From: an uncultured cyanobacterium
GTDB lineage: Bacteria > Cyanobacteriota > Cyanobacteriia > Cyanobacteriales > Geitlerinemataceae
Length of the DNA stretch: 38,173 nucleotides
NCBI GenBank assembly: GCA_937899645.1
Contig: CALCCD010000101.1
Span: 1-38,173 of the forward strand
Direction of reading: 5' to 3'
Position numbers and translations under genes: made by a program. The notes under the pieces were generated by a model. That model was not told the DNA's origin and did no database searches. It saw nothing but the letters and a program-made list of their open reading frames with translations. This document shows, in pieces, positions 13,567 through 27,850 of this stretch (its first letter is position 1; each line of letters opens with the position of its first letter).

Positions 13567-14040
13567 TCACGTCAGTTGCGAAACTTCGTAGGATTGTGCG
13601 TTGGCAAACAGCCAGTGTTTGAGTATGACCTCGACGCGATCGCGCAGCTCTCGGACGTTCATGGGTTTGATGATGTAGGCATTCGCACCGTTTTGGTAGC
13701 TTTCTTCGATGTCAGCAGGTTGCGTTGACGTACTGAAAATCACGATCGGAACTTGAACGAACTCGGGCAACTCGCGCATCTGCCTGAGCACTTCACGACC
13801 GTCCGTCCCCGGTAGATTCAGATCCAGGAGAATCACCTTCGGAATACTGCTCGGTTCGCGATCGACGCCCGTAAGCGTTGATAGATGCTCCAAAGCCAAG
13901 TCACCCGTCTCGAAGTGCCGAATGTCAATGCCAATTCCGAGCTTTTCCGTGCAACGGACGAACATGTCGTAATCTTGTTCGCTATCTTCCACCACAAAAA
14001 CTAGGCGATTGCGAGGCATTTCGTCGGTTGAAGGTGGCAT
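13567..14040 (-). CDS. Rcp1-type phytochrome response regulator
   Basis: The 157-residue receiver has E18-D19, phospho-acceptor D73 (VILLDLNLPGTDGREVL), STST, and the lysine in YIIKP. DLNLPG.DG.EVL and the long insertion before it are typical of the Rcp1/CheY family paired with cyanobacterial phytochromes, so the adjacent phytochrome kinase is the likely phosphodonor. The gap to the phytochrome stop is 21 bases and contains nine consecutive C on the coding strand, just before the ATG. No ribosome site is evident. A second ATG at codon 8 is an alternative start; a short direct repeat (GGCATTTCGTCGG) covers both starts. Confidence 0.9.
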   Translation of the reverse strand: MPPSTDEMPRNRLVFVVEDSEQDYDMFVRCTEKLGIGIDIRHFETGDLALEHLSTLTGVDREPSSIPKVILLDLNLPGTDGREVLRQMRELPEFVQVPIVIFSTSTQPADIEESYQNGANAYIIKPMNVRELRDRVEVILKHWLFANAQSYEVSQLT

Positions 14041-14061: not shown

Positions 14062-16320
14062 TCATTCTGGTGAGAGCGTGAAGTAGAAAGTGGAGCCCTG
14101 TCCTTGCTCCGATTGGAGCCAGACCTGGCCACCGTGGCGTTCGGCGATTTTTTGCACGATCGTCAAGCCCGCACCCGTGCCTTCGCCGTATTGGCGCGGG
14201 CCGTTCAGTCGCTTGAAGATGCGGAACACGAGCTCTTGATGCTGCTTTGCAATTCCGATGCCGTTATCTCGGACGTAGAAAACGGTTTGAGAAGAGCGTT
14301 CTAGAACGCGCGTGCAACCAATTTCAATCCACTTGTCGGCGCTTTTATTGTATTTCAGGCCATTTGCAATGAGGTTGGTCAAAAGCTTTTCGACGAGCAC
14401 TCTGTCCGCCCGCACTTCGGGCAGACGCTCGGGCAGGCGAATATCGAGAGGTTCCCGTCTGGAAGTTTCTAGGACGGTCTGAATCTCTTCGCGGACGAGC
14501 GCGACCAGATCGACCGGGACGCGCGCGAGACTCTGACGCCCCAGCCGTGAATAGTAGAGCAGCGTATCGATCAGTTTTTCCATGCGCTTGGTCAGCGTCA
14601 TGAGAGTTCTGAGCTTTTTCGTGCCACCCTCGTCGAGACTGTCTTCATAGTCTTCGAGGAGTAAGTACGAGTAGTTATAGATGCCGCGCAGGGGTTCTTT
14701 GAGGTCGTGGGAGGCGACATAGGCAAACGAGTCGAGTTCGGTGTTGCTACGCTGAAGCTCGATGTTGATTTCAGCGAGTTCGTCGGAGGCTTTGAAAATG
14801 ATGTCGACGAGCAGGTTACGGAACTCTCGAATCTGCTGAATTTCGCAGGGGAGCCACGGTCGCGATCGCCCGACGACAGTTTGTTGCCACTGTGCGAAGG
14901 ACTGGCGCGGCGAGAGCGTTAGTGTCCCGTCGGTCTCGCGTTTGGCGTCCTTGTTCGGGTTGCCTGCCCAGCGCACGGATTGCACGATCTCCGGACGGAA
15001 CCAAATGATGTAGGAGTTCTCAGTGCGGCTGAGGTAGAGCAACATCGCGCCGCTGGCGACATCTTGAAAGCTTGCTGCTCGTGGATAGCGCTTGCGGGTG
15101 CAGTCGGTGTACAGGAGGTCGCGATTTGGCTCGGCTTCGCTCCAGTTTTGGATGAAGTCTATAACGTCGCTCGGTTCCGGCGTCGTGCCGAACAGCTCGA
15201 TCTGGCCTTGAAAACAAATCCCGAGCCCTTGGGCGTTGACGAGCTGCCGCAGTCGGTCGCTGTTGGCGCGTAGGTCGGCCGGGATATCGATCGAGACGGA
15301 GAGGGTGTCGATCAGTGTTGCGAGGATGTCCTGAATGCGAAGCTGGTATTCCAGGCTGGCGCGGTCTTGCTTCGAGACCAGGTTCAGCGACATCACCTTG
15401 CCGAGAAACTCGCAGGCCGTTCGTACTTCGTAGGGAACATACTTTGGGGCGGCATAGTTGTGGCAAGCCACTAGACCCCAGAGTCGGCCTTCATGGACGA
15501 GCGAGATCGACATCGAAGCGCGCACGCCCATGTTTTGGAGATATTCGATGTGAATCGGCGAGACGCTGCGTAGGTTGGCATGGCTGAGATCGAACGGCTC
15601 GCCAGTTTGCGGATGGGGCGGCAGGGCAGCGGTTTTGGAATTGACGTCGGCGATCGAACGGATGTAGTTGAGCAGGTATAGCGCGCGGGCGGGCTTGGGG
15701 ACATCCGTTGCCGGGTAGTGAAGGCCGAGCAACGGCTCGAGGTCGTCGTTTTTGGCTTCGGCAATGACGTGGCCGGAGCCGTCGTCGTCGAACTTATAGA
15801 CGAGCGTGCGATCGAAGCCGGTGATGCTCCGCACGTGCCGGACGATAACTTCAGACAGGGACTCGAACGTACGAGCGTTCTGGATCTCGTCGATGACCGT
15901 TCTGGTGATGTTGTAGAACGAGAGAAAGTCGTTGCGATCTTTCGGGTCGAATGGTTCGAGTTCCAGAAAAAGAAAGCCGCCGTGCGTGTGAACGCTCGCG
16001 CTCGTGGGTCGTTCGCAAACGAGGACACGTAGCGGATTGATGCGCAGAAAGTCGCCAGAACAGCCTCGGATGCGGCCGACCGTCTCGGGGTCGAGCAGCG
16101 CGCAGAGAGTGCTGCCGAGGATGTCTTCGCGATCGCGATTGAAGAAGTCTTGCAGGTTATCGCTGGCCTGGACGATTGTCAGCGTATCCGGCTCGGCAAC
16201 GATGAGGCAGCCGTGGTTTTGAATCGCGTTGGGGATGTGGATTCGCTCGCGATCGCAGTTCGTGAGATCGACATCCTTTGCCGTAACGAGTTGAACCTCT
16301 CGCCTTGTGTTGTTTTGCAT
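14062..16320 (-). CDS. Bacteriophytochrome histidine kinase (PAS-GAF-PHY-HisKA-HATPase)
   Basis: This is a soluble red/far-red photoreceptor kinase of 752 residues. Domains: PAS about 20-125, GAF about 145-310, PHY about 325-505 with the tongue motif PRQSF (471-475), HisKA with H538 (SHDLKEPLRG), and HATPase about 640-750 (DNGIGI, GTGAGL). Chromophore clues: C22 in LTNCDRERIHIP is the N-terminal cysteine that binds biliverdin in bacteriophytochromes, while the GAF position that is Cys in Cph1 is Ile here (SPIHIEYLQNMGV, I256-H257). PATDVP (203-208) supplies the conserved Asp, D206. It should therefore use biliverdin, like cyanobacterial CphB/BphP proteins. It heads a four-gene operon with two response regulators and a hybrid kinase. 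Confidence 0.95.
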   Translation of the reverse strand: MQNNTRREVQLVTAKDVDLTNCDRERIHIPNAIQNHGCLIVAEPDTLTIVQASDNLQDFFNRDREDILGSTLCALLDPETVGRIRGCSGDFLRINPLRVLVCERPTSASVHTHGGFLFLELEPFDPKDRNDFLSFYNITRTVIDEIQNARTFESLSEVIVRHVRSITGFDRTLVYKFDDDGSGHVIAEAKNDDLEPLLGLHYPATDVPKPARALYLLNYIRSIADVNSKTAALPPHPQTGEPFDLSHANLRSVSPIHIEYLQNMGVRASMSISLVHEGRLWGLVACHNYAAPKYVPYEVRTACEFLGKVMSLNLVSKQDRASLEYQLRIQDILATLIDTLSVSIDIPADLRANSDRLRQLVNAQGLGICFQGQIELFGTTPEPSDVIDFIQNWSEAEPNRDLLYTDCTRKRYPRAASFQDVASGAMLLYLSRTENSYIIWFRPEIVQSVRWAGNPNKDAKRETDGTLTLSPRQSFAQWQQTVVGRSRPWLPCEIQQIREFRNLLVDIIFKASDELAEINIELQRSNTELDSFAYVASHDLKEPLRGIYNYSYLLLEDYEDSLDEGGTKKLRTLMTLTKRMEKLIDTLLYYSRLGRQSLARVPVDLVALVREEIQTVLETSRREPLDIRLPERLPEVRADRVLVEKLLTNLIANGLKYNKSADKWIEIGCTRVLERSSQTVFYVRDNGIGIAKQHQELVFRIFKRLNGPRQYGEGTGAGLTIVQKIAERHGGQVWLQSEQGQGSTFYFTLSPE

Positions 16321-16634
16321 AAGCTAGTGAGGCGCGATCGTAGGACGAGATGCCGTAGATGCGAAGAATCCGGCAATTTTGACGTACTCCGGAGGCAGCA
16401 AATCACCACAGTCAACATCTTGACACAAATTTCAACACTAGCCGAAGAGCGTTTGGCGTGCGGGTCGAGCGACGAGTTCGTACCCGCCTGAACCTCGCCA
16501 AATGACAGGAACCGAGCACCTCCGCTTCGAGGGCGATTAATGCTCTCGGCTTAGAGAATCTCGGTTCCTCAAAACCTCATTTCAACTTCTAGTCAGGCAA
16601 ACGAGAGGATCTGAAGTCTGTCACGTGCGACAAG
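16321..16634. other. 314-base intergenic region with a 10-base inverted repeat
   Basis: This separates the ATPase cluster from the phytochrome operon on the same strand and should hold the phytochrome promoter. AGGAACCGAG (16507-16516) and its perfect reverse complement CTCGGTTCCT (16560-16569) are 43 bases apart. There is no T-run on either side, so it is not a standard terminator; it could be a weak hairpin or a protein site. Nothing else is recognised. Confidence 0.5.
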
Positions 16635-16820
16635 CTAGTCGATCGCGCTGAAGCAGAATGCGGCGACGAGCAGGAACGGCGTCCCCGGAATTCCGGGCAG
16701 CATCAGGCCGATCGCGCCGATCGCCGCACAGGCCACGCCGACAACGCGCAGAGCGGTATTTTTCAAGTCGTTGGCGAAGTCACCGAAATTTTGGCTGAAG
16801 TTTTGAGTGCAGGTGTTCAT
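16635..16820 (-). CDS. Short DUF454/YbaN-like membrane protein
   Basis: This 61-residue product has a soluble N-terminal stretch, then one long hydrophobic region (about 26-58) containing GAIGLMLPGIPGTPFLLVAAFCF, which matches the conserved core of DUF454 inner-membrane proteins (LP.LPTTPFLLLAA.CF). Family members are about twice as long; here the frame stops right after the core, and no continuation is seen in other frames. It is either a minimal version or a truncated gene. It starts 73 bases after the ATPase gene on the same strand, so it could be co-transcribed and assist that transporter. Function unknown. Confidence 0.6.
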   Translation of the reverse strand: MNTCTQNFSQNFGDFANDLKNTALRVVGVACAAIGAIGLMLPGIPGTPFLLVAAFCFSAID

Positions 16821-16893
16821 GATTTTTGTGATTAGAGAATATGTTTGGTAGAGAACGCGAAATCTCGGTTGCAGCGTCGATCGAGGCTAACGG

Positions 16894-19326
16894 CTAGCCG
16901 ACGCGCAGATCTTCAAAGGTAGTTGGCTCATCCGGCTTGCTGCTGTTACTGAAGCCTTTCGTCTCCGATTTCTTCTCGGCTTTCGTACTTTTGCGCCCGC
17001 TCTTTGCCGTGCTGCTTTTCTGCGGTTTCGGCGACGACTTCGGTTTGTCGGGCTTGGGCTTGGGCTTGGATGCGGCAGGTGCGATCGCCTGGGCTTTAGA
17101 CGGCTTCCCGACGATCGTCGGATCTTTCACGAAGTCCGGGACGTTGTCGGGGCCGAGCAGCGGACGCAGGCCGTTGAGTTCCGCCACGATCGCCGAGCCG
17201 TTGTTGATCGCCACCGCCAGCACCGGATCGAGGATGAAGAACACCCCGAACAGCATGGCGCTGAGGTTGGGAACCGCGACGACTGCCGTATTTTGCCAGA
17301 CCACGTCCATCGTCTGTTTAGCGATGCGGATCGCCAGAATCAGGCTGGCGATATTGTCGTCCATCAGGACGATGTCGGCGGTCTCGCGCGCCATGTCCGT
17401 CGCGGAGGCGAACGAGATCGACACGTCCGCGTGCGCCAGCGCTGCCGAGTCGTTGATGCCGTCGCCGACGAAGGCGATCGTCTTGCCGCTCTCGCTCAGC
17501 CCCTTAACGACCTCGACTTTGCGCTCGGGGAAGGCTCCGGCGTAGACGTTGTGCGACTCGATGCCCAGCTCGGAGGCGATCGCTTCGGCCACCGGCTGCA
17601 CGTCGCCGCTGAGCATGTAGGGCTCGATGCCCTCGCGGTGCAGGTCGGCGATGACCAGATGGCTCTCGGGGCGTGGCGGATCGCGGTAGAGAATCGCGCC
17701 GATGACCTCGCGATCGGTGGCGACGTAAACCATCGAGTTGCCGCCGCTGAGGATTTCCGGGTGGCGGCGGTGCAGCCCGTCTAGTTTGATGTTTTGCTTG
17801 CGCATCAGGCTGCCGCTACCGACGAACACCGGCCGCTTGTCGATGCGTGCCGAGATGCCGTAGCCGACCAGGTAGTCCCAGTCCTCGCATTCGCGGTGGT
17901 CTACGCCGTTTTCTGCGGCGTGGCGGACGATCGCCTCGGCCACTGGGTGGGTCAGCCCCTGTTCGGCGGTGGCGGCGATCGCCAGTACGTCCGCTTCGGA
18001 ATAGTCGCGGTCGATCGAGCAGACCTCGACGACTTCGGCGTGGCCTTGGGTGAGCGTGCCGGTCTTGTCGAAGACGATCGTATCGACCCGCGCCAGCATC
18101 TCGATCGCCCGACCGCTGCGAATGAATACCCCTTGCCGCGCCGCGTAGGTCAGCGCCGAGAGGATCGCCGTGGGGACTGAGACGCGAATCCCCGTCCCGA
18201 AGTCGAGTGTAATCAGCGAGATGCCGCGCGCCGCGCTGCCTGTCGCCGCCCAGACCGCGCCGCCGAGGAACAGCGTCGGCAATACCGCCTGGTTGCCGAT
18301 CTTCTGGGCGTAGTTTTCGATGCGCGTGTCGTGAACCGGTGCGGCTTTCATCAGTGCCACGACGACGCCAGCACGGGTATTTTCGCCGGTTCGCTCGACT
18401 TCGATGCGGAGCGTGCCGTCCACCACCAGCGTTGAGGCGAACACCTCATCGCCCACATCGCGGGTGACGGGAACCGACTCGCCGGTGAGTTTTTGCTGGT
18501 CGATCGTCGCTGTGCCGCTGCGGATGTTGCCGTCGATCGGGATTTGGTCGCCGGGAAAGACGACAACGATATCGCCGACGACGACCTCTTTAAGCGGGAT
18601 TTCTTGGGTATCGCCGTCGCGCTCGACGCGGGCGGTCTTACCGAGACAGTCGAGCAAATCGAGGTTGGCGCGCGCCGTGCCCCGTGCGGTCAGGTCGCGA
18701 ATCACTTCGCCGGACTCGAGCAGACCCAGCATAAAGGCGGGCGGGAAGAAACGGCCTTCGATCGTGTGGAGGACGATCGCCAGCGAGTCGAGGAAGTCAA
18801 CATTCAACTCGCCTTCCTCTTCAATGCCCTCCCAGGCGCGCAGGAAGGCCGGAACCGACCCGGCGATGATGACGCCAGCCAGCAGCCAGATGGGAACCGG
18901 CATCCCGGCGATCGCGCCGAGGCTGAGCAGCAGGCTCAATCCCGGCATTCCCAGCCGCTCGACGTAATCGATTTCTCCCAATTCTTCGGGCGCGTCGGCG
19001 ATCGTAATTTCCGTCGAAAGCTCTGAATTCGTGGCGTCTTTCAAGCAGGCGACGATGTGGTTCTGAAGCTTGCGCGGCGAAATTTCGGTCGCGTCGTAGC
19101 TGACGATTAGAGACTTTGCTGCCGAGTTGACGCGCGCTTCGGCCACGCCAGTCAGATGCCCCACCAGCCACTCGAGCCGCGTGGCGTAGTCTTCGTCCCA
19201 ATTCAATTGCGGAATGCGGAGGCGGAACCGTCCGGGAATGGCATGGACGATTTCGTACGCGGGCAGGTACGTGGCGATCGCGGCACTATCTGCCGCCACG
19301 AGGGAATTGGGGCGATCGGCTAACAT
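16894..19326 (-). CDS. P-type ATPase, catalytically intact, lacking CPC, with Lys/Pro/Ser tail
   Basis: The 810-residue product has an N-terminal HMA2-like domain without metal-binding CxxC (about 23-96, IPGRFRLRIPQL), membrane helices about 126-165 and 175-205, an actuator with T281-G282-E283-S284, and TM helices about 345-400. The position of the usual CPC reads LDFGTGIRVSVP (374-385). The ATP domains are complete: D420-KTGT, H460-P461, and GDGINDSAAL (621-630). A final membrane pair ends near 715. Residues about 740-795 form a Lys/Pro/Ser-rich, probably disordered cytosolic tail. Overall it is closest to P1B heavy-metal ATPases, but without CPC the ion cannot be predicted. It follows three small helical-protein genes and a pseudo-ATPase gene that has the same LDFGTG motif. 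Confidence 0.9.
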   Translation of the reverse strand: MLADRPNSLVAADSAAIATYLPAYEIVHAIPGRFRLRIPQLNWDEDYATRLEWLVGHLTGVAEARVNSAAKSLIVSYDATEISPRKLQNHIVACLKDATNSELSTEITIADAPEELGEIDYVERLGMPGLSLLLSLGAIAGMPVPIWLLAGVIIAGSVPAFLRAWEGIEEEGELNVDFLDSLAIVLHTIEGRFFPPAFMLGLLESGEVIRDLTARGTARANLDLLDCLGKTARVERDGDTQEIPLKEVVVGDIVVVFPGDQIPIDGNIRSGTATIDQQKLTGESVPVTRDVGDEVFASTLVVDGTLRIEVERTGENTRAGVVVALMKAAPVHDTRIENYAQKIGNQAVLPTLFLGGAVWAATGSAARGISLITLDFGTGIRVSVPTAILSALTYAARQGVFIRSGRAIEMLARVDTIVFDKTGTLTQGHAEVVEVCSIDRDYSEADVLAIAATAEQGLTHPVAEAIVRHAAENGVDHRECEDWDYLVGYGISARIDKRPVFVGSGSLMRKQNIKLDGLHRRHPEILSGGNSMVYVATDREVIGAILYRDPPRPESHLVIADLHREGIEPYMLSGDVQPVAEAIASELGIESHNVYAGAFPERKVEVVKGLSESGKTIAFVGDGINDSAALAHADVSISFASATDMARETADIVLMDDNIASLILAIRIAKQTMDVVWQNTAVVAVPNLSAMLFGVFFILDPVLAVAINNGSAIVAELNGLRPLLGPDNVPDFVKDPTIVGKPSKAQAIAPAASKPKPKPDKPKSSPKPQKSSTAKSGRKSTKAEKKSETKGFSNSSKPDEPTTFEDLRVG

Positions 19327-19530
19327 ACGCGAACTCGAGAGTCGTTAAGTTTTGGCGAACGGGAGCGAGGCGGTAGAGCGAACCCTGAAAGCGGGACTGG
19401 AGATGGTGTTACGTCGAAGCAGACATTCGGAATCTTCTGGTAGCAGCGCACAGCAGTGCGCCATATTCGGGCGTCAATCGCGACAGATCCGAGGAAAACT
19501 CCAACCCCAACATTGCGTGCTGGCGCTGCA

Positions 19531-19833
19531 CTAATCCGAGGAGATATCCACGCGGCGGGGCGATCGGCCCGGTTCGCGCGAGGTTTTGGCTTCAGCGCGG
19601 GCTTCTTCGATCATTTCGTCGAAGTTGAGGCGGGCTTCATCGAACGACTCTTTCGCATCGTCGAAGGCTTTGACGGCGACGACGAGACCGCTCTTGGTGG
19701 CGTCGCGGAACGAGGCCGACAGGTCGTCGCAGATTTTCTGCGTTTCTTCCTTCGATTTACCAAAAACCGAGCCGACTGCACTGGCAGCGACGAGGCCGAG
19801 GCCACCGAAAATTGCGATTTCTACGGGTTCCAT
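19531..19833 (-). CDS. Small helical membrane-associated protein, DUF5132-like (copy 1)
   Basis: The 100-residue product starts at the ATG at 19833; an upstream extension of the frame to 20211 is Arg/Pro-rich and overlaps the next gene, so I reject it. Residues 1-25 are Gly/Ala-rich and hydrophobic (EIAIFGGLGLVAASAVGSVFG), suited to membrane insertion. Residues about 28-88 form an amphipathic helix ending NFDEMIEEARAEAK. The last residues (RRVDISSD) resemble the acidic tails of the two sibling proteins upstream. The pattern resembles DUF5132, a family without known function that I recall near P-type ATPases in cyanobacteria. The ATPase gene starts 204 bases downstream. Confidence 0.75.
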   Translation of the reverse strand: MEPVEIAIFGGLGLVAASAVGSVFGKSKEETQKICDDLSASFRDATKSGLVVAVKAFDDAKESFDEARLNFDEMIEEARAEAKTSREPGRSPRRVDISSD

Positions 19834-20068
19834 AGTCTTCTGTGGGGGAGTTCTGTAGGGGATCGATCGACTCGGGCGCGCACCGCAATGTGTGACAGCG
19901 CGCCCAGTGAGCGCATCGGTCGGCGCATCGGTCGGCGCAGGCGCTCGCTGTGCTCCATTGTAGCTAAGGGGGGTGAAACGTCTTCCCCCTGACAGGCTCG
20001 AAGCGCAGAGCCCGCGACGAATGGCGGAAAATATCGATCGAAAACCGGCGCGATCGCCCGAAACCGAC
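19834..20068. repeat. Spacer with GC hairpin and tandem 12-base repeat
   Basis: The spacer contains GGGCGCGC (19874-19881) and its perfect reverse complement GCGCGCCC (19898-19905), forming an eight-pair stem with a 16-base loop. Two tandem copies of GCATCGGTCGGC follow at about 19913-19936. They sit upstream of the minus-strand small gene and could affect its transcript. No gene is seen. Confidence 0.5.
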
Positions 20069-20359
20069 CTATTCTGTGTCGATCTCGACTTCTGTCGGCG
20101 GCGGCGTCTCGGGCTGAGAACTGCGCGCCTCGCGGACGGCACGGGCTTCGGAAACGAGATCCTGGAACGCTTCGCCCAGCTCGGCGCTGGCGACTTTAGC
20201 CTTCTCCGCAAGCCCCAGGCTCATCACGATCGTCGACTTTGCCAGACCCCGCGTCGCCCTGGCGATCGCGTTGCCGAAGACGCCGTCGATCGCGTTGACG
20301 ACGGGCGCGAAAACAAGTCCGCCAAGCAAAAAGGCGAAGAGCAGTGGGCCGAATTCCAT
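20069..20359 (-). CDS. Small helical membrane-associated protein with EVEID tail (copy 2)
   Basis: The 96-residue product has a hydrophobic N-terminus (FGPLLFAFLLGGLVFAPVV, about 3-21), then an Ala-rich helix with AFQDLVSEARAVREAR (about 64-79), a Pro-rich linker and the C-terminal peptide TEVEIDTE. The helix lines up with NFDEMIEEARAEAK and SFNDLMAEARLEAN in its two neighbours, and the tail is nearly the same as PKEVEIDAD in copy 3, so I consider all three paralogs although the N-termini have diverged. Membrane anchoring is likely. Function unknown; context implies partnership with the flanking ATPase-like proteins. Confidence 0.75.
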   Translation of the reverse strand: MEFGPLLFAFLLGGLVFAPVVNAIDGVFGNAIARATRGLAKSTIVMSLGLAEKAKVASAELGEAFQDLVSEARAVREARSSQPETPPPTEVEIDTE

Positions 20360-20423
20360 GAGTGTCTGTGGCGATGTGGTGCGGTGTCTTTGCGAAATTG
20401 CGAGACCCCGAAGATTTTCAAAA

Positions 20424-20439
20424 CCTCAGAGATCTGAGG
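20424..20439 (-). terminator. Weak hairpin with U-run between small genes
   Basis: CCTCAGA-TC-TCTGAGG on the minus strand is followed by TTTTGAAAATC. The seven-pair stem has only a two-base loop as written (so really about six pairs), and the T-run is short. It could partly terminate transcription between copies 3 and 2. Confidence 0.35.
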
Positions 20440-20456
20440 ATATGGCTTCGAGCTGG

Positions 20457-20597
20457 CTAGGGGCTGTCATCAATTACATTCAATTACATTTACAACCCTT
20501 ACCCAGGTAGGATCTAAGCCCCTAGCTTTACTTGCGGGTCGGGCGCTCAACTGCTCAGCCTATAAGGAGTCTGGCTTTAATTGATGACGCGCCCTAG
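20457..20597. mobile_element. Candidate MITE with 20-base terminal inverted repeats
   Basis: The left end CTAGGGGCTGTCATCAATTA (20457-20476) and the right end (20578-20597) are reverse complements at 17 of 20 positions. The 141-base element has no coding capacity. TA (or CTAG) at both edges could be the target duplication. An internal AGCCCCTAGC (20517-20526) repeats the left tip in inverse orientation, so a nested 73-base element (20454-20526) is also possible. The right end overlaps the TAG stop codon of the small gene 20594-20875. The ends resemble some IS5-type tips, but the parent transposon is not in the window. Confidence 0.65.
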
Positions 20598-20875
20598 TCC
20601 GCGTCGATTTCGACTTCCTTCGGCGGCGCAGCGGGCTGCTTGGCCTGATTCGCTTCGAGGCGCGCTTCGGCCATCAGGTCGTTAAACGATTCGCTCGCTT
20701 CGGCGATCGCGCCCTGGGCGTTGTCCATCGCCTCCATCGACCAGGCCAAACCTTGCTTCATCGCTTCGCGCACCGGGTCGTCCGAGTCTTCGGTTTCTTT
20801 ACCCAGCGCCGTTCCGACTGCGCCCATTACGGTTCCCGCGCCGAAAGCCAATGCCGATACGATTGCAAATTCCAT
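20594..20875 (-). CDS. Small helical membrane-associated protein, DUF5132-like, EVEID tail (copy 3)
   Basis: The 93-residue product has a Gly/Ala-rich hydrophobic start (IVSALAFGAGTVMGAVGTALG, about 5-25), an acidic linker, an amphipathic helix (about 33-78) ending SFNDLMAEARLEANQAKQ, and the tail PPKEVEIDAD. It is the sibling most like copy 1 in its GxxxG-type N-terminus and most like copy 2 in its tail. The stop codon lies in the end of a putative MITE. The gene starts 98 bases downstream of the pseudo-ATPase. No enzymatic motif is present; a membrane-bound scaffold or regulatory subunit is the plainest guess. Confidence 0.78.
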   Translation of the reverse strand: MEFAIVSALAFGAGTVMGAVGTALGKETEDSDDPVREAMKQGLAWSMEAMDNAQGAIAEASESFNDLMAEARLEANQAKQPAAPPKEVEIDAD

Positions 20876-20973
20876 AGCGTCCCGAACGTTAAAACATCAC
20901 ACTTTTTCATGATATCTCATGGGTTTCCGGGGGCTTTCGGGTCGTTGGGCGAGACTCGCGGGGGAGCGGGGAC

Positions 20974-23349
20974 TCAAGCGGTGCGGATATTGGCGCGAGG
21001 TTCCGGCGGACGATCGCCAAACAACGCCTCGAGGTCGCGATCGTCCGGAGCCGTTTCGATCTCATCCAAAACCCGCTGCGGCCAACGGTGCGACTTCGCC
21101 CGACCCTGGCGCAACTGCAAGCCGTTGAACTCCGCCAGCAGCACCGCGCACTGATTGATCGTCACGGCCCAAATCGGATGCAGCCCCAAGAACGTCCCCG
21201 AGAACACCGCCATCAGATTCGGCAGCGCCACCATCAGGGCGTTGAGCAGCGCGGTGTCGCTGGCCTGGCGGGCGATCGCGATCGCGTGGGGCAGATCGCG
21301 CAGGTCGCCGTCGATCGCGACGAGATCGACGCGGCGATCGGCCAAGGTCACATCGAGCGTCGGGCCGATATCGGCAAGCAGGCCGTGGGGATTCCGAGGC
21401 TTGTCGCCTGCCGGATCTTCTGGAATCTCGAGGGGGATTTCAACAGGAATCTCGCCTGGTATCTCAAAATCGCGATCGCGGCTCACCCAGAGGATCTCGC
21501 CGGTGCGCGGTACGGACGAGCCGCCCAGCCGCTCGAATAGCGCCAGGCGATCGTCAGGCGTGGCGGCGGCAATCGTCTTCTCCGGCATGATGCCGAGCTG
21601 CGTCGCGATCGCGCGGACGAGTTCGGGGCGATCGTCGCCGACAAAGTGGGTCGCGATGCCCTGGCTTTTCAGCGCCGCGATCGCCTCGCGCGCTGTCGGG
21701 CAGATCTGGACGCTGAACCCGAGCGCACCGAGCAGCTCGCCATCACAGGCGATCCACAGTAGCCGCTCGAAATTTTCGGCATTTTCAGCGCCATCGAGTG
21801 GGTGATGCGCCGCCAAGATATGGGGATAGCGCGATCGCAGCGGTTCGCAGTCGATGCCCTGCTGACCCAGCCACGTCGCCGAGCCGATGCAGACGCGCCG
21901 AACGCGATCGAGTTCTTCGGTATCGGCTTCAATGCCGCCGCCGGGGACGAGGTGGTGGCGATCGCAGCGAAGCCGGGCCGCGCCGCAGGTTTTGCCGTAG
22001 CGCTCGATCGCGCCGCTAACGCCCAGATCGAGCCCGTCGCAGACCGACACCGCCAGCGAAGCCAGCCGCACCCCCGACGCTACCGACTCTGGCCCCACCG
22101 GATATACCTGCGTCACCGCGATCGGCACAACGACGCTCGACAGCTCGAACACCGCCACCGACACACTTGCCAGCCGCTCCAGCACCCGCGCATCCCGCAG
22201 ATAGATGCCCTGGCGCGCCGCCCCGATCGTGGCGCTCAGCGCGGTGGTCGGCAGCACCGAAGACAGCCCCGTCCCGAAGTCCAGTTGCAGCAGCGGCGCG
22301 GGCGACATCCCCATCGCTAGCAGCGCCCCCGAAGCAGCTAAGGTTGGCGCAACTAGCGCGTTTGCCGCCGTCTCGATCCGCGCGCCAAACTGCGTCGCGG
22401 TGAGCGTCGCGGTGTCGGCGAGATGTCGCACGATCGCCGCGTGGGTCGCCCGCCCGCTGCGCCGCGCTCGCACCCGAATCTTGCCGCGCGCGACCAGCGT
22501 TCCGGCATCGATTTCCCGTCCGAGGCTGGGCGCGATCGCGCTGGCCGATCGACACCAGGACGGCGCTTCGAGCTGCGTCCCGGGGGCGAAGCTGACGATC
22601 TCGCCATCGATCGGCAGGCGATCGCCCGCGCCGATCGCGGCCACGTCACCGATCCGCACCGACGGCACTTCGACCGCAGCGAGCCGACCGCCGCGATCGA
22701 TCCAGGCGTGGCCGCGCGTCTGGCGATCGAGCAGCGCCGCAATCTCCTCGCGCTCCTCACGGCGGGTGCGATCGCGCACGGCGATGTTCGTCTCGGTGAA
22801 GGTCGCCAGCAGCGCCGGAGCGACAAACTGCCCCTGCGCCACGAGCCACAGCATCCAGAGCGTATCGAGCAAATCGACCGTCAGATTGCCAGACAGCTCG
22901 CTCGACTCCGGGTCGGTGAGTCCGGCCAGTCCGCGCTCGACGATCGGCCATGCCGCCACGCCGATCGCCCCGGCGACGATCGCGATCGGTAGCTCGGCAA
23001 CGGTGGCCACTCCCGCGATCGCCAAGCTCGTCAGCGGCGCGGCCAGCGGCTCCCAGTCTTCTGCGAAGTCCACCGCCGGAAACTGCGGCGCGAACTCTCG
23101 TGGCTTCGGCGCGGGCGTCGCGATCGCGGCGTCGATGCGGGCGAACAGCTCGCCGAGCAGATCGTCTTCGTGGGGCTCGGGGCGGTATTCGATCGTCAGC
23201 GATCGCGCGGCGGGATTGAAGCGAATAGACTTAAGGCGATCGAGACCTTCGAGATCGCTTTGCAGCCGCGCGAAACTCTCTGGCGACTCCAGTTCGGGAA
23301 GCCGCAGGCGAATGCGTCCGGAGATATGGTGAACGATTTCGTGCTGCAT
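20974..23349 (-). CDS. Degenerate P-type ATPase-like protein (predicted pseudo-enzyme)
   Basis: The 791-residue product follows the order of the intact ATPase downstream: HMA2-like start (EIVHHISGRIRLRLPEL, 4-20), membrane helices about 105-135 and 158-190, an actuator region (RLPIDGEIVSFAPGTQ), the shared LDFGTG motif (356-361), AARQGIYLRDARVLERLA, and a final pair of helices about 700-740. Every catalytic motif is changed: DKTGT reads FELSSVV (401-407, Glu402 for Asp), TGES reads RSAS, the N-domain HP is gone, and no GDGxND is present; that area holds a repeat, EIPGEIPVEIPLEIPED. The long frame is intact with HIP1-rich coding sequence, so it is not a decayed gene. I infer a non-pumping partner or regulator of the active ATPase. 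Confidence 0.88.
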   Translation of the reverse strand: MQHEIVHHISGRIRLRLPELESPESFARLQSDLEGLDRLKSIRFNPAARSLTIEYRPEPHEDDLLGELFARIDAAIATPAPKPREFAPQFPAVDFAEDWEPLAAPLTSLAIAGVATVAELPIAIVAGAIGVAAWPIVERGLAGLTDPESSELSGNLTVDLLDTLWMLWLVAQGQFVAPALLATFTETNIAVRDRTRREEREEIAALLDRQTRGHAWIDRGGRLAAVEVPSVRIGDVAAIGAGDRLPIDGEIVSFAPGTQLEAPSWCRSASAIAPSLGREIDAGTLVARGKIRVRARRSGRATHAAIVRHLADTATLTATQFGARIETAANALVAPTLAASGALLAMGMSPAPLLQLDFGTGLSSVLPTTALSATIGAARQGIYLRDARVLERLASVSVAVFELSSVVVPIAVTQVYPVGPESVASGVRLASLAVSVCDGLDLGVSGAIERYGKTCGAARLRCDRHHLVPGGGIEADTEELDRVRRVCIGSATWLGQQGIDCEPLRSRYPHILAAHHPLDGAENAENFERLLWIACDGELLGALGFSVQICPTAREAIAALKSQGIATHFVGDDRPELVRAIATQLGIMPEKTIAAATPDDRLALFERLGGSSVPRTGEILWVSRDRDFEIPGEIPVEIPLEIPEDPAGDKPRNPHGLLADIGPTLDVTLADRRVDLVAIDGDLRDLPHAIAIARQASDTALLNALMVALPNLMAVFSGTFLGLHPIWAVTINQCAVLLAEFNGLQLRQGRAKSHRWPQRVLDEIETAPDDRDLEALFGDRPPEPRANIRTA

Positions 23350-23583
23350 TTTCGTGCCGACTTTGGCTGCGGCGAGGCGATCCGGGCACAGCGGCCGACC
23401 TGGAAGCGGCTAACCCGCTCTCCCTACGATAGACCCGTTGTCAAAGAGTCGTCCGCACGATGAAAACACGGCTCGTTTGTGGCTCTGTGTTGGGGCGCTT
23501 TACGAGAGGTGTGGGAGCTGAGCGGGAGAACGATCGGCGACGCTGCTGGAGACTGCGCTGGCCCTATCCCCGACCGAGTCGTC

Positions 23584-25161
23584 TCACCAGTCCTCGTCGT
23601 AGTCGGGGTACTGCGGCGGCGGGTCGCCCTTGCCGCCAATTTTCAGCGCATTGAGTTCGAGCCGCGTCTGTTCGTCGAGTTCGTCGATCGACTCTAGCAA
23701 CATCTCGAAGTGCCAATCGTCGCCAAAATCGAAGTTGAAGTCGAGCCGCGCTCCGGGCCGAACGGGCAGGTCACCCAGTTGCACGTCCGGAGCCTTCGCG
23801 ACTCCGAAATCGGCGTACTGATGGACGATCGAGATCGGTACACCCACCTCGTTCGCAAAATTGAACGCATATAGGTGCGCCATATCTTCAAACTCGAACG
23901 CATCGAGGATAACGTGTGCCACCCCGTCGAGCCCCCACATGCTGGGAATCGCCAGCCGCCGCCACGCCTTGCCCAACGATACTTTGAAGATAAAAATCCC
24001 CTCGATAAATTCTGGCACTTGCAGCGCCAGGGTCTTTTCCAGACCAGGCACGAACTCACGGAAGCTGTCGTAGTAGAGGTCGAAGTCGGTCGCGCGATCG
24101 GAGTCTACGCCGCGCGCCAGCAAGCCGCGCACTCTTTCCGAGCGAGCCTCGTCTTCTTCAGCGGCTTTCTCCATAATCGATCTCAGCGCCTCTTCGCCAT
24201 GCGCACTGTTCTCGACCGCCGCCTTCAGCTGGCGCTGGGCTTCTTCCGGCTCGATCGTTCCCATCGCCTGACGCTCCATTAGCAAAGACAGCGTTTCGAG
24301 CAGTTGGTACTCGTCTGACTCGGGCGCGAAGGGAATGGAACTGAGGGGTGCTTCGGGCTGCGGCTCGTCCGGTTCGTCTGGCTCGTCTGTCGGCGATCCG
24401 AACAGTCTGAAGAAAAACGGCTGTCGCGATTCTTCGAGGTACATTTGCCCCAATGCCGCGAAGATCGCATCGCCAAACTCGGTCAGCGCGATCGAGCGAA
24501 TACTCCAAGCTTGCCCCTCCTTCGGTTCGACGGCCTCCACTCGAATCAGCCCGAACCCATCGAGCAGCGCCACGTTGTACAGGGTGGGACGGTAACTCAA
24601 GCCCTGTTCTCGGTTTCGCGGGTCGCAGTCCTCAACCTGCATGAAGCCGTCAGTCTTCAGAAATCGTTTGAAGAAGTCGAAGCAGCGTTCGACCGGACAT
24701 AGCCCGCGATCGCCGAGGAACCTGTGGTCAGACTGGTGAAGCCAAGCGGCCAACAGGCTGAAATATTGCTCTTCGGGTTTCAGCGCCGTCCAGGATTCGA
24801 GATGTCCCGGCGCGATCGTCAGGCAGTTTTTCCGTTTTTCGTCCGGGCGCGTGAAGCCCATCGTCCGCGCGACCCAAAACAGTCCGATCGCGTAAACGTA
24901 GTGTTTCTGGTTGGCGCGTTTGAGCCTGAGGCGCGTCGGGCGCGAGAGCGTCTCGTTAAACTCGGCGAGGAATTTGAGGCTGGGGAGCTGCGATCGGGCG
25001 GTGATGGGGATGCCGTCGTTCAGGCGATCGAGCAGGGCTTGAAAGTCGCTCGAGACCGGCCCCGGTGTCATGCCGTCAAATTGCTGCTGGGAGAGGCACG
25101 CGATCGTCTCTGGGCTGAGCGTACTGGCGTCGAGTGGGTCGGGCGGCGAGGGAGTGAACAT
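23584..25161 (-). CDS. Plasmid pRiA4b ORF-3-like (IS1096 TnpR-like) domain protein
   Basis: The C-terminal part of this 525-residue protein (about 360-505) matches the pRiA4b ORF-3 domain: a first strand FIFKVSLGKAWRRLAIPS, then LDAFEFEDMAHLYAF, the conserved RPGARLDFNFDFGDDWHFEM, and a Pro/Asp-rich end (PPPQYPDYDEDW). The N-terminal 300 residues are helical and acidic without a domain I know. The family is widespread and often annotated after a transposon passenger; its biochemical role is unsettled. No transposase or terminal repeats are visible here, so I do not read it as mobile. It stands alone, 87 bases after the GH57 stop if co-transcribed. Confidence 0.8.
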   Translation of the reverse strand: MFTPSPPDPLDASTLSPETIACLSQQQFDGMTPGPVSSDFQALLDRLNDGIPITARSQLPSLKFLAEFNETLSRPTRLRLKRANQKHYVYAIGLFWVARTMGFTRPDEKRKNCLTIAPGHLESWTALKPEEQYFSLLAAWLHQSDHRFLGDRGLCPVERCFDFFKRFLKTDGFMQVEDCDPRNREQGLSYRPTLYNVALLDGFGLIRVEAVEPKEGQAWSIRSIALTEFGDAIFAALGQMYLEESRQPFFFRLFGSPTDEPDEPDEPQPEAPLSSIPFAPESDEYQLLETLSLLMERQAMGTIEPEEAQRQLKAAVENSAHGEEALRSIMEKAAEEDEARSERVRGLLARGVDSDRATDFDLYYDSFREFVPGLEKTLALQVPEFIEGIFIFKVSLGKAWRRLAIPSMWGLDGVAHVILDAFEFEDMAHLYAFNFANEVGVPISIVHQYADFGVAKAPDVQLGDLPVRPGARLDFNFDFGDDWHFEMLLESIDELDEQTRLELNALKIGGKGDPPPQYPDYDEDW

Positions 25162-25248: not shown

Positions 25249-27489
25249 TCATGGCATGCAAAGCGAAATCAACCCCGCTTCCGGCAAACGATCCTTAAAC
25301 TGCTCGTCCTCCGCCAAAATTGCCGTCAAATTCAGCGTCCAATCTGGCTCCATCGGCAGATCGCCCCAGGGAATCGCAATCTCCAAACACTTGTCCAGAC
25401 TCGCCCGCACGCCCGACAGTCGCGAATGCCAAACGTCGTTTTCCCACGACTCCTGGAACGTTACCGACTCGCTGCGTAAGTCGATCGCCACGTGGTGCGC
25501 AAAGCGATAGTTCAGCGGCTCCACGTCCGGCAGCGAGCCGAGCGGAATCGGACTCGTACACATCGGGCGATCGGGGTAATACCAGAGCAAATGCAGCTCC
25601 GGCGGGCAGTCCTTACGCGGATCGACACCGGCCCCAAAGTCGAGCCGCAGGTAGAAATTGCGGTGGTCGAAGCCGTAGAAGATTCGCTGGATAGCGCTGC
25701 TGCGGTGCATCGTGCCGCGCGAACCGCCGACCTCGATACGTCCCGCGTGCGACCAGTCCTGCTCGTCGCCAACGCCGTCGATCGTCGGGTGGATAAAGCT
25801 TTGCGGCACGCGATCGCCGACATTGTCGTGAACCTCGACGGGCTGCTTCACCTCGTCGGGAATCGGCTCGTCGAGGGCAGTGTAGAGCGCCGCCAAATGC
25901 TCGCGAAATAGCGCATCGAAGATCGCATCCTGCGCCGACGAGTGACCGACGCCAAACCACCAAAACCAGTCAGATCCCTCAGCGGCGTAAAGCGCTTCCC
26001 AGGCGTCGGGGTTGGCTTCTTCCGTGGCTTCGGGGTGGTTGGCGAGGGTTTGGCGGGCGTCGTAGAGCAAGTCCCAGGCGCGGTTTTTCGCCGGGTCGCC
26101 GATCCAGGTGGTGAAGTTGCCATCGACCCAGGAGCCGCTGTGAAGCTTGTCGGCGGGCAGAGTTTCGGTGGTGGGGTTGGCGTCGAGGAATTCCGAAACG
26201 GTCACGAGCTTGATGTCTTCGCGATCGCTCAGGCGGCTGTAGAGCGCGTCGAGGAACGGCACGCCGTCTTTTTCGTAGAATTCCCAGCAGTTTTCGCCGT
26301 CCAACGCGATCGTCACCAGCCAAGGATTTTCGAGGCCGGTCGAGCCCTGGCCGTGTTTGAGCGATCGCGCGATCGCCTCCAGGTGACCGATCAGATCGGC
26401 AGCGGCCTGCTTCGGCGGCATCGAAGCATACGTGAAGCCGATCAAATCCGAGAGCCGGTGATCGCGAAAGACGATGCTCAGGTCGCCGTTGGGCGTTTCC
26501 AGCCGGTAAGGCCGATACATCAGCTCCGGCTCGAAGACGTTGCCCGCGCCGTCACGATGGAAAAAGTGCTGCAACGTCCAGCCCAACACGGCTTCGTCGG
26601 AGACGATCCAGCTAAAACCCGCTTCGGCGATATCGGGCAAAATCGCCGGACTGACGGACTGCTCCGACGGCCAAAGCCCACGCACCGGGCGATCGAACCG
26701 CGCTTCGTACATTTCTTTAGCTTTGTTCAAGTGGCGCGGAATATCCTCCGGCCACTGGAAGCGCTTCTTCGGCAAATCCATCTCCGGTACGGCAACGCGC
26801 CCCGAGTTCGTGTCGGCCAGCAGCGGCAAAATCGGGTGCGTGTAGGGCGTTGTCGTCACCTCGAGCTGGCCGCGATCCTGCATCTCCTTGTGCTTGGCGA
26901 CAATGCGTCCGAGGATTTCGCGCTGCTTGTCGTAGATTTTCCGGCGCGTCTCTAGATCGTAGCCCGACTGCTGCGCGAACCAGCCCGCGATCTCCGGGTC
27001 ATCCCAAAACAGCGGATCGAACCACGCGAGGTTGTGCCAGGTCGCCACATCAACGAAGTCCCGATCGGACCAGCGATCCATGCACCAATCTTTTCCGTTT
27101 TCCTGGCGCTGTTCGTAGAGCTTGCGGTAGTGCGGGTGTGGATCGATCAGGGTGTGGTGATTGCCGTCGAAGCAGCGATCGAGGGCGTACTGTTTGTCGG
27201 CAACTTCGTAGTCTTCGATCGGCTTGAGCAGCAGTTCGAGATAGGGGTCAGCGGCCTTGCCCGCCACGTAATCTTCAATTTGCAGGATCAAAGACGGCAC
27301 GAGATTGACCGTTTGATGCAGGCTCGGGTAGCGATCGAGCATCAAAATCAGGTCGAGATAGTCCTTAATTCCGTGCAGCCGCACCCAGGGCAGACGGTAC
27401 TCTTCGTGGGTGGGCGTACTGGCCGCGCGGCTTTTGTACAGTGGCTGGTGTTGGTGCCAAATAAAAGCAACGTAAAGCGGATGAGACAA
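25249..27489 (-). CDS. GH57 glycoside hydrolase (alpha-amylase/4-alpha-glucanotransferase type)
   Basis: GH57 enzymes act on alpha-glucans such as glycogen by a retaining mechanism. The characteristic HQHQPLYK is near residue 12. The nucleophile region GLWPSEQS has E276, and FRDHRLSD supplies the acid/base D343 (numbered from the TTG start). DGENCWEFY lies near 397-405. A C-terminal beta-rich part (about 520-746) resembles a glucodextranase/DOMON-like domain. I chose TTG at 27489 because it gives the usual short start (M)SHPLYVAF and has GGGAG ten bases upstream; the frame extends to a GTG at 27564. No signal peptide is seen, so it is likely cytosolic, in storage-glycan metabolism. Exact specificity cannot be assigned. 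Confidence 0.88.
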   Translation of the reverse strand: MSHPLYVAFIWHQHQPLYKSRAASTPTHEEYRLPWVRLHGIKDYLDLILMLDRYPSLHQTVNLVPSLILQIEDYVAGKAADPYLELLLKPIEDYEVADKQYALDRCFDGNHHTLIDPHPHYRKLYEQRQENGKDWCMDRWSDRDFVDVATWHNLAWFDPLFWDDPEIAGWFAQQSGYDLETRRKIYDKQREILGRIVAKHKEMQDRGQLEVTTTPYTHPILPLLADTNSGRVAVPEMDLPKKRFQWPEDIPRHLNKAKEMYEARFDRPVRGLWPSEQSVSPAILPDIAEAGFSWIVSDEAVLGWTLQHFFHRDGAGNVFEPELMYRPYRLETPNGDLSIVFRDHRLSDLIGFTYASMPPKQAAADLIGHLEAIARSLKHGQGSTGLENPWLVTIALDGENCWEFYEKDGVPFLDALYSRLSDREDIKLVTVSEFLDANPTTETLPADKLHSGSWVDGNFTTWIGDPAKNRAWDLLYDARQTLANHPEATEEANPDAWEALYAAEGSDWFWWFGVGHSSAQDAIFDALFREHLAALYTALDEPIPDEVKQPVEVHDNVGDRVPQSFIHPTIDGVGDEQDWSHAGRIEVGGSRGTMHRSSAIQRIFYGFDHRNFYLRLDFGAGVDPRKDCPPELHLLWYYPDRPMCTSPIPLGSLPDVEPLNYRFAHHVAIDLRSESVTFQESWENDVWHSRLSGVRASLDKCLEIAIPWGDLPMEPDWTLNLTAILAEDEQFKDRLPEAGLISLCMP

Positions 27490-27850
27490 AAGCCTAAACT
27501 CCCAAACTGTCGGCAGGATGCGAGCGAGCGAGGTAAGGTGCGATCCGTGCAATCTAACATGCACTTTGAGTCGGTCGCTCGACGAACGGCATCAGCCGTA
27601 TGCTATCGCGATCGCGGCGGCTTTTACGGACTCGGCATCGCACGGCAACGATCTGTCAAAATATCGGTCAACATCGTCCGACATTACGCCAAAATTCTGT
27701 CATCTGCCGCACAATAGCGCCATAAAAAAACTCCCCTCAGGCGCAAACCTAAGGAGAGAATTAAAGTTAAAAGAGGACACGAACTGAAACTAACTCAGCA
27801 TCACGACGAGGCGATCGTCTAGACGATCGAACGCCGCAACCTTCGCGAAG
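27490..27850. other. Intergenic region between hpf and GH57
   Basis: About 360 bases separate the hpf stop from the preferred GH57 start. It contains the hpf terminator (27723-27758) and should contain the GH57 promoter. Nothing else is recognised. Confidence 0.5.
27723..27758 (-). terminator. Rho-independent terminator of hpf
   Basis: On the minus strand CTCTCCTTAGG, a TTTGCG loop and CCTGAGGGGAG form an eleven-pair stem with two G-U pairs, followed by TTTTTTT. It lies 92 bases after the hpf stop. Confidence 0.85.

Follow-up and report, generated by a model that had tools for sequence, protein, structure and literature searches.

Six consecutive genes on the minus strand of a cyanobacterial contig encode a P-type ATPase with intact motifs (ACT), a paralog that has lost its catalytic motifs (PSE), three small tailed proteins (S1, S2 and S3) and a hairpin protein of 61 amino acids (aa; D454). 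The window, by which is meant the whole 38,173-nucleotide stretch analysed, is contig CALCCD010000101.1 (C101) of the 4.55-Mb genome G000, an uncultured member of the Geitlerinemataceae (assembly GCA_937899645.1). Judging from sequence and from analogy with known systems, we think it reasonably likely that the six genes encode one membrane transport assembly, in which ACT would be the motor, PSE a dedicated subunit and S1-S3 the scaffold. The usual picture of a P-type ATPase is that of a one-chain motor, and the motor-less P-type ATPase partner is a new element. The degenerate gene is under purifying selection, active and degenerate ATPases recur together in other cyanobacteria, and DUF5132 proteins co-occur with ATPases of this branch.

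A six-gene block kept in order within one genus

The original prediction, made from the letters of the window, had treated the six genes as a coherent set. All six open reading frames (ORFs) were present (Table 1), and their order recurred in all three genomes of the genus examined: identically and on a single contig in G386, and split over two contigs, PSE-S1-S2-S3 and ACT-D454, in G387. Outside the block and the spurious frames overlapping it, no window ORF of at least 60 aa had a match at E 1e-8 in the stretches of the relatives compared (20 kb of G386; 5.2 and 9 kb of G387). Because the same genes stand in the same order in G386 and G387 amid surroundings without a match, conservation of the block is more than chance. 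By blastp, identity to the window protein was 83% (G386) and 80-83% (two G387 fragments) for ACT, and for G386 and G387 together 76-78% for S1, 66-70% for S2, 60-64% for S3, 57-62% for D454 and 52% for PSE. A sigma-70 consensus scan of 16400-23800 found no site (mean of 1.1 in shuffles), a consensus that says little for a cyanobacterium, and a promoter and terminator scan of the block region gave nothing above shuffles.

Table 1. Genes of the block, all within window positions 16635-23349.
Gene	Position	Strand	Product
PSE	20974-23349	-	791 aa; P-type ATPase paralog, dead by its motifs; HMA_2-like N-terminus; LDFGTG in transmembrane helix 4
S1	20594-20875	-	93 aa; small tailed protein, DUF5132-type; tail ends EVEIDAD
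S2	20069-20359	-	96 aa; small tailed protein; DUF5132 above Pfam cut-off; ends EVEIDTE
S3	19531-19833	-	100 aa; small tailed protein; distant DUF5132-type relative; ends RRVDISSD
ACT	16894-19326	-	810 aa; HMA2 P-type ATPase; TGES, DKTGT, GDGIND; LDFGTG instead of CPC
D454	16635-16820	-	61-aa hairpin protein; partial DUF454 match

The predicted pairing of an active ATPase with a pseudo-ATPase was borne out by the motifs. ACT scored above the cut-offs of both the heavy-metal P-type ATPase model TIGR01525 (E 1.5e-149) and HMA_2, and all three of its catalytic motifs are intact, as expected of a catalytically active P-type ATPase. PSE matched the same models below cut-off (E 7.4e-41 and 1.5e-5, respectively); its DKTGT site reads ELSSV and TGE is absent in all three orthologs, and GDGxND is absent in the two that are readable there. 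Both proteins carry LDFGTG in transmembrane helix 4 (TM4), at the position of the CPC/SPC-type motif of P1B ATPases. This substitution is present as predicted, but it is not the unusual feature it had been taken for: all 64 active relatives aligned have the TM4 Asp, with variants such as LDFVTG, LDFATG, LDLCTG and FDLGTG among others, and motifs resembling LDFGTG characterise the ATPase branch as a whole rather than this pair. No CxxC of the kind found in P1B-type HMA domains occurs within the first 120 residues of ACT or PSE. Many ATPases of the branch of ACT have HN or NN in transmembrane helix 6 (TM6); PSE has NQ at the NN position. Genome G000 also holds a second locus, of a common cyanobacterial type (L066; G000:C108:78000-92000), with a DUF5132-type protein, a 214-aa short HMA2-type protein and an 813-aa ATPase with intact motifs and LDFVTG. 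A scan of genome contigs with PSE returned three weak CPC-type ATPases, which served only as extra alignment rows for structure prediction.

Ratios of nonsynonymous to synonymous substitution (dN/dS), computed by the Nei-Gojobori method with a custom script, were 0.16-0.33 for PSE and 0.05-0.12 for ACT across the genus comparisons, with most dS values near or above 1. Between G386 and G387 the ratios were 0.09 for S1, 0.13 for S2, 0.04 for S3 and 0.10 for D454; two dS values for S1 could not be computed. Because their ratios are low, PSE and D454 behave as constrained protein-coding genes, and the values for PSE argue against random decay.

Small tailed proteins and the hairpin protein

Three small tailed paralogs had been predicted between the ATPases, and all three were recovered by a DUF5132-type profile. 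S2 exceeds the Pfam cut-off for DUF5132 (PF17195), S1 reaches 15.0 bits against a cut-off of 25, and S3 has no Pfam match. A profile of 75 small proteins, none of them from the genus, found S1 (E 2.2e-11), S2 (E 4.8e-13) and S3 (E 2.2e-6), compared with E 2.8 for the best of 3000 shuffles; the 75 rows had been gathered with a profile partly seeded by S1-S3, and the test is not fully independent. On these profile matches, S1-S3 are assigned to the DUF5132-type family of small proteins. The model of S1 has one helix at residues 3-27, another at 34-78 and a loose C-terminal tail (mean predicted local distance difference test score, pLDDT, of 64, and about 48 in the first helix). In S1-S3, Glu and Ala make up 30-38% of residues 41-80, and each protein has one GXXG within its first 30 residues. 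A general C-terminal V-x-[IV] tail motif was rejected: it occurs in 16 of 77 tails, against 2.4% by chance, and is real in some lineages but not general.

The nearest known system is the PacL/Ctp effluxosome of Mycobacterium tuberculosis, in which the DUF1490 proteins PacL1-3 accompany CtpC, CtpG and CtpV (PMC9374683, PMC13043812). PacL proteins are described in a passage of PMC13043812 as binding ATPase N-terminal domains through Glu/Ala repeats and one another through GXXG. Like them, S1-S3 have an N-terminal membrane helix (modelled at low confidence), a Glu/Ala-rich cytosolic part, a C-terminal tail and a GXXG near the start, are encoded beside an HMA-type P-type ATPase, and occur several per organism. 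Unlike them, they are DUF5132-type rather than DUF1490 proteins and contain no His, so the C-terminal His/Asp metal motif of PacL is missing; the ATPase has LDFGTG instead of CPC, and the set includes a dead P-type ATPase and a DUF454 hairpin. Membership of DUF1490 was unsupported (S1 scored 14.1 bits against a cut-off of 28.4; S2 and S3 had no match). Because S1-S3 fail these DUF1490 tests, the set is not filed as a member of the PacL/Ctp system, although by analogy it would work most like it. The main texts of PMC9374683 and PMC13043812 mention neither DUF5132 nor cyanobacteria, and "pseudo" is absent from the first and "pseudo-ATPase" from the second.

Other comparisons are more distant. 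DUF6110 PacL-like proteins pair with P1B6 ATPases in Firmicutes and others, according to passages of PMC9374683 and PMC13043812; these, too, are small helical proteins, and the genes next to them encode ATPases of a little-known P1B branch that has HN in TM6, where many ATPases of the present branch have HN or NN. No DUF6110 match was found among 32 small proteins scanned (E<=1), and the same passages mention no dead ATPase partner for P1B6 systems. KdpFABC also combines a P-type ATPase with other membrane subunits, and KdpB models and structures match ACT or PSE weakly; the block, however, has no KdpA-, KdpC- or KdpF-like gene by Pfam or NCBIfam, and the partner is another P-type ATPase.

Of 386 genomes of the phylum, 57 gave a DUF5132 match, 52 an ATPase of this branch (E <=1e-90) and 48 both (Fisher odds ratio 433, genomes counted regardless of relatedness), so that DUF5132 is present in 48 of the 52 genomes with the ATPase branch. 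A DUF5132 match lies within 8 kb at 44 or more of 70 ATPase places (those of the ATPase-branch search and one from the phylum search with PSE), and at least 46 of 81 DUF5132 matches lie within 8 kb of a listed ATPase place. Both counts are lower bounds, as the ATPase-branch search scored two candidates per genome; an active ATPase beside a DUF5132 gene in G382 (L202), for instance, stands outside its best candidates. Many of these loci also encode short HMA2-type proteins of about 180-450 aa, matched to the N-terminus of ACT. No paper on DUF5132 was found in the open-access literature, a scope outside which most subscription papers lie.

D454, predicted to be DUF454-like, scored 39.9 bits against the DUF454 cut-off of 35.1 and matches positions 3-38 of 115, a part of the DUF454 (YbaN) domain rather than the whole; nothing on DUF454/YbaN function was found among the papers listed from the same literature. 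The hairpin profile was seeded from the genus of the window and from family f25, and other hairpins may escape it. The system was found in seven f25 genomes of 2.3-3.0 Mb, which are probably picocyanobacteria. The ATPase region holds DUF5132-like tails and DUF454-type hairpins in all seven genomes with the ATPase, where the hairpins follow an additional N-terminal stretch whose resemblance to HMA2 was judged by eye alone. Six of the seven also encode a dead ATPase there, about 700 aa long; in G342, the exception, the contig breaks off some 500 bases beyond the ATPase. G372 (L197) and G378 (L186) each have two different dead ATPases flanking the active one. Together, the genus of the window and f25 provide 10 genomes with ATPase and hairpin; nine of these also have a dead ATPase, which in G387 stands on a separate contig. 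Two further proteins, a DUF1345 protein and an ArsA_HSP20-domain protein, have relatives in each of the seven f25 regions. In G382 a relative of the latter adjoins an antiporter-type gene and a 592-aa partner ATPase, and DUF1345 relatives occur in the G382, G085 and Gloeothece regions as well; because these relatives are shared, the arrangements of f25, G382, G085 and Gloeothece are linked. The f25 loci, from small-genome cyanobacteria, combine the same kinds of parts as the window block.

Degenerate partner ATPases across cyanobacteria

A search with PSE of the phylum (386 genomes) and of the family (14 genomes) gave nothing near the identity of the two genus orthologs (55-56%); the best other matches were about 30% identical. 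Fourteen of the genomes examined (G000, G386, G387, G247, G382, G089, G179, G241, G280, G085, G237, G357, G097 and Gloeothece) have an ATPase at least 55% identical to ACT, and all 14 have a degenerate partner. The partner lacks all three motifs in 11; in G089, G085 and G241 only a milder type, with GEG for GDG, was seen. These searches scored only the best two to three candidates per genome, and unlisted ones are possible elsewhere. The partner lies near ACT in G382, in Gloeothece and in the genus (where G000 and G386 have both on a single contig), far from it on the same contig in G247, G089, G179, G241 and G085, and on another contig in the remaining genomes. Homologs scattered without co-occurrence would have counted against the original prediction; they were not scattered, given the genus block and the DUF5132 and partner counts, though the partner often does not adjoin ACT.

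Outside PSE itself and f25 the partners fall into three classes. Seven (in G280, G089, G179, G247, G085, G241 and G382) have GEG for GDG in GDGxND, with SGEV replacing TGE-x in two, and are classed as degenerate from sequence, but they keep DKTGT and a GxGxND-like spacing and their inactivity is only putative. Four partners of 592-617 aa (G382, G280, G179 and G247; the 600-aa class) lack TGE, DKTGT and GDGxND. In five of 496-522 aa (Gloeothece verrucosa PCC 7822, G357, G097, G237 and, in pieces, G235; the 500-aa class) the A and N domains are largely missing, and NG takes the place of NN in TM6. Outside f25, all 19 partner rows retain the TM4 Asp, as do three of eight f25 dead rows. A Glu near the end of TM6 is found in all 18 readable partner rows outside f25 (26/26 with f25 included), in both ACT rows and in only 6 of 64 other active rows. 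Since this Glu is common to both, it hints that the f25 dead proteins belong to the lineage of PSE.

A counterpart of the block is on a plasmid of Gloeothece verrucosa PCC 7822 (NC_014533.1), where an ATPase 56% identical to ACT (WP_013334282.1) and a DUF5132 protein (WP_013334280.1) accompany WP_013334278.1, a 522-aa ATPase remnant without catalytic motifs that is annotated as an HMA2 domain-containing protein. Unlike the block, this locus has a partner whose A and N domains are largely missing, a single tail protein and a DUF1345 protein; no DUF454 hairpin was found there by profile. Close to this ATPase set, L206:13944-15446 encodes a YegS-type lipid kinase by annotation, with an HMA2-type C-terminal stretch.

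Descent was examined in trees of chosen representatives (37, 36 and 22-23 rows; a further tree used 82). The motif survey left out CPC-type ATPases and proteins <590 aa, and the 82-row tree left out duplicates, fragments <600 aa (including the G387 rows) and one 945-aa ATPase of G382. A single branch of the 37-row tree separates PSE and seven GEG ATPases from 28 others (support 98/92), and the 36-row tree separates 16 partner rows, including the two shortened classes, from 20 active rows (support 99/95), but the partner rows are all long-branched, as the tool warned, and their mutual attraction may make the grouping partly an artefact. When classes were placed singly, PSE and the 600-aa class branched off between the ACT clade and the remaining active ATPases, the 500-aa class attached between the rest and a set comprising the f25 actives, the Gloeothece type and the ACT clade, and none of the three joined the ACT of its own genome. 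A recent local duplication of ACT as the source of PSE was rejected, with p-AU 0.0009 when PSE was constrained with its own ACT. The titles and abstract openings listed from the open-access literature, outside which most subscription papers lie, held nothing relevant on pseudo, inactive, degenerate or heterodimeric P-type ATPases.

Several neighbouring genes may be recorded here. A ~27-kb island of G382 (G382:C1 ~7555000-7583000; L149, L230) contains three antiporter-type genes, Usp, an active ATPase, a GEG ATPase, a DUF1345 relative, an HMA2 and glycine-rich protein, an ArsA_HSP20-type relative and the 592-aa dead ATPase. In the window, a phytochrome-type histidine kinase (PAS_2-GAF-PHY-HisKA-HATPase; 14062-16320) lies downstream of the block, adjoined by a response-regulator-like gene recognised by eye (13567-14040). 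Upstream and on the same strand as the block are genes for a 525-aa PRiA4_ORF3-domain protein (23584-25161) and a GH57 glycoside hydrolase (25249-27564), neither of which has a match in the 20 kb of G386 compared.

A putative assembly and its alternatives

In the assembly proposed here, ACT, which belongs to the CPC-less HMA2 branch of P-type ATPases, would act as both motor and pump, and PSE as a dedicated P-type ATPase subunit in which catalysis has been lost and an HMA_2-like domain and membrane helices kept. S1-S3 would be a DUF5132-type scaffold that acts as PacL does, each with a membrane helix, a Glu/Ala-rich cytosolic helix and an acidic tail. They would associate with one another within the membrane and attach to the HMA_2 domains of both ATPases, and this docking would gather ACT and PSE into a cluster and stabilise the pump, with PSE as a non-pumping member; D454 would contribute a small membrane hairpin. 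The physical complex, the docking on HMA_2, the role of PSE (as scaffold, regulator or second ion path) and the direction of transport are features that we infer.

A hard divalent cation, for example Ca2+ or Mn2+, is the probable substrate. This putative assignment is weakly indicated by the absence of Cys from LDFGTG and of CxxC from HMA_2, by the TM4 Asp, and by genes of Ca2+/Mn2+ transporter type near some loci. In a survey of 95 partly overlapping regions, in which some genes were checked by Pfam and others by blastp, Ca2+/H+ antiporter-type genes lay close to both ACT and the shortened partner of G382, and in G386 such a gene lay upstream of PSE at a distance of 4.5 kb; GDT1 was found in three of seven f25 genomes, and bestrophin beside the GEG partner in four genomes; none of these was found in the window. 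The neighbours are suggestive of Ca2+/Mn2+ but not consistent enough for a claim.

Several results weigh against the proposed assembly. Besides the high dS values, the long branches of the partner rows and the motifs retained by the GEG class, the genus sample consists of three genomes, two of them 82-86% complete, and the G387 PSE ortholog (L064:1895-4389) lies in two overlapping frames, through either an assembly error or a real break. The predicted structure of PSE has a mean pLDDT of 52, and its 50 listed matches in the PDB reach TM-scores of <=0.33 by query length; those to P1B ATPases have low E-values yet low TM-scores and lend weak support. S1-S3, with no His, have no His-rich metal motif, and 35 of the 81 DUF5132 matches are not within 8 kb of a listed ATPase. 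In the f23 and f24 genomes the partner and ACT are far apart, with no DUF5132-type protein near ACT in the regions examined, and G235 has a shortened partner and no ACT-like match at E 1e-90, which speaks against strict pairing. The f25 dead rows, placed alone, fell beside the active ATPases of f25, where support was poor (31 at the next fork); these proteins may be of local origin and not of the PSE lineage.

Some of these results would fit a pump cluster of PacL/Ctp type made of ACT and S1-S3, with or without D454, in which PSE takes no part, being a paralog that is decaying or serves separately and merely remains in the operon. Its dN/dS is about two to five times that of ACT in the same comparisons, and the split G387 gene and the distances in f23 and f24 point the same way. 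We nevertheless consider this explanation unlikely, as the ratio for PSE is well below 1, the reading frames of the window (791 aa) and of G386 (838 aa) are open, and a partner was found in all 14 genomes examined that have a close ACT relative. Rather less likely still is that PSE is a regulator or sensor and not a structural subunit, its HMA_2-like and membrane domains binding an ion and thereby altering the activity of ACT. The retention of the HMA_2-like domain and the TM4 Asp after loss of the motor would suit such a role, and pseudoenzymes often regulate (PMC5106787, PMC10211241); however, comparison of the window with G386 shows lower conservation in the HMA_2 part of PSE (34/71 identical residues) than in the membrane parts (60/93, 41/66 and 38/60). 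That PSE passes ions without phosphorylation, as a channel or carrier linked to ACT as a pump for the same ion, is very improbable: a membrane domain with its TM4 Asp outlasting the motor, most markedly in the 500-aa partners, and the antiporter-type genes near the G382 and G386 loci speak for it, but PSE and the 500-aa class have NQ and NG, respectively, at the TM6 NN position, and we know of no P-type membrane domain that acts as a passive channel in bacteria.

We therefore prefer the assembly with PSE as a dedicated subunit. Going further, and with the balance of our judgement falling slightly short of it, the block may represent a class of cyanobacterial P-type transporters that are heteromeric, with an active HMA2 P-type ATPase joined by one or two dedicated pseudo-P-type-ATPase subunits. 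These would stem from an old duplication and have lost the motor stepwise (GDG to GEG; then DKTGT, TGE and GDGxND; then the A and N domains), the HMA_2-like and membrane domains being kept and DUF5132 proteins bridging the subunits. If so, they would be the first family of P-type pseudo-ATPase subunits, with the dead copy serving as a second ion site or a docking platform.

A motor-less P-type ATPase lineage kept by selection beside an active one offers a natural experiment on the function of the membrane domain once its motor is gone. Pseudo-ATPase partners can hide under bland annotation, as the HMA2 domain-containing protein of Gloeothece illustrates. The proposal also offers a concrete hypothesis for DUF5132 and DUF454 hairpin proteins, the function of which is unassigned in Pfam, and, if true, it would bring cyanobacteria (DUF5132) under the effluxosome idea, alongside mycobacteria (DUF1490) and Firmicutes (DUF6110).

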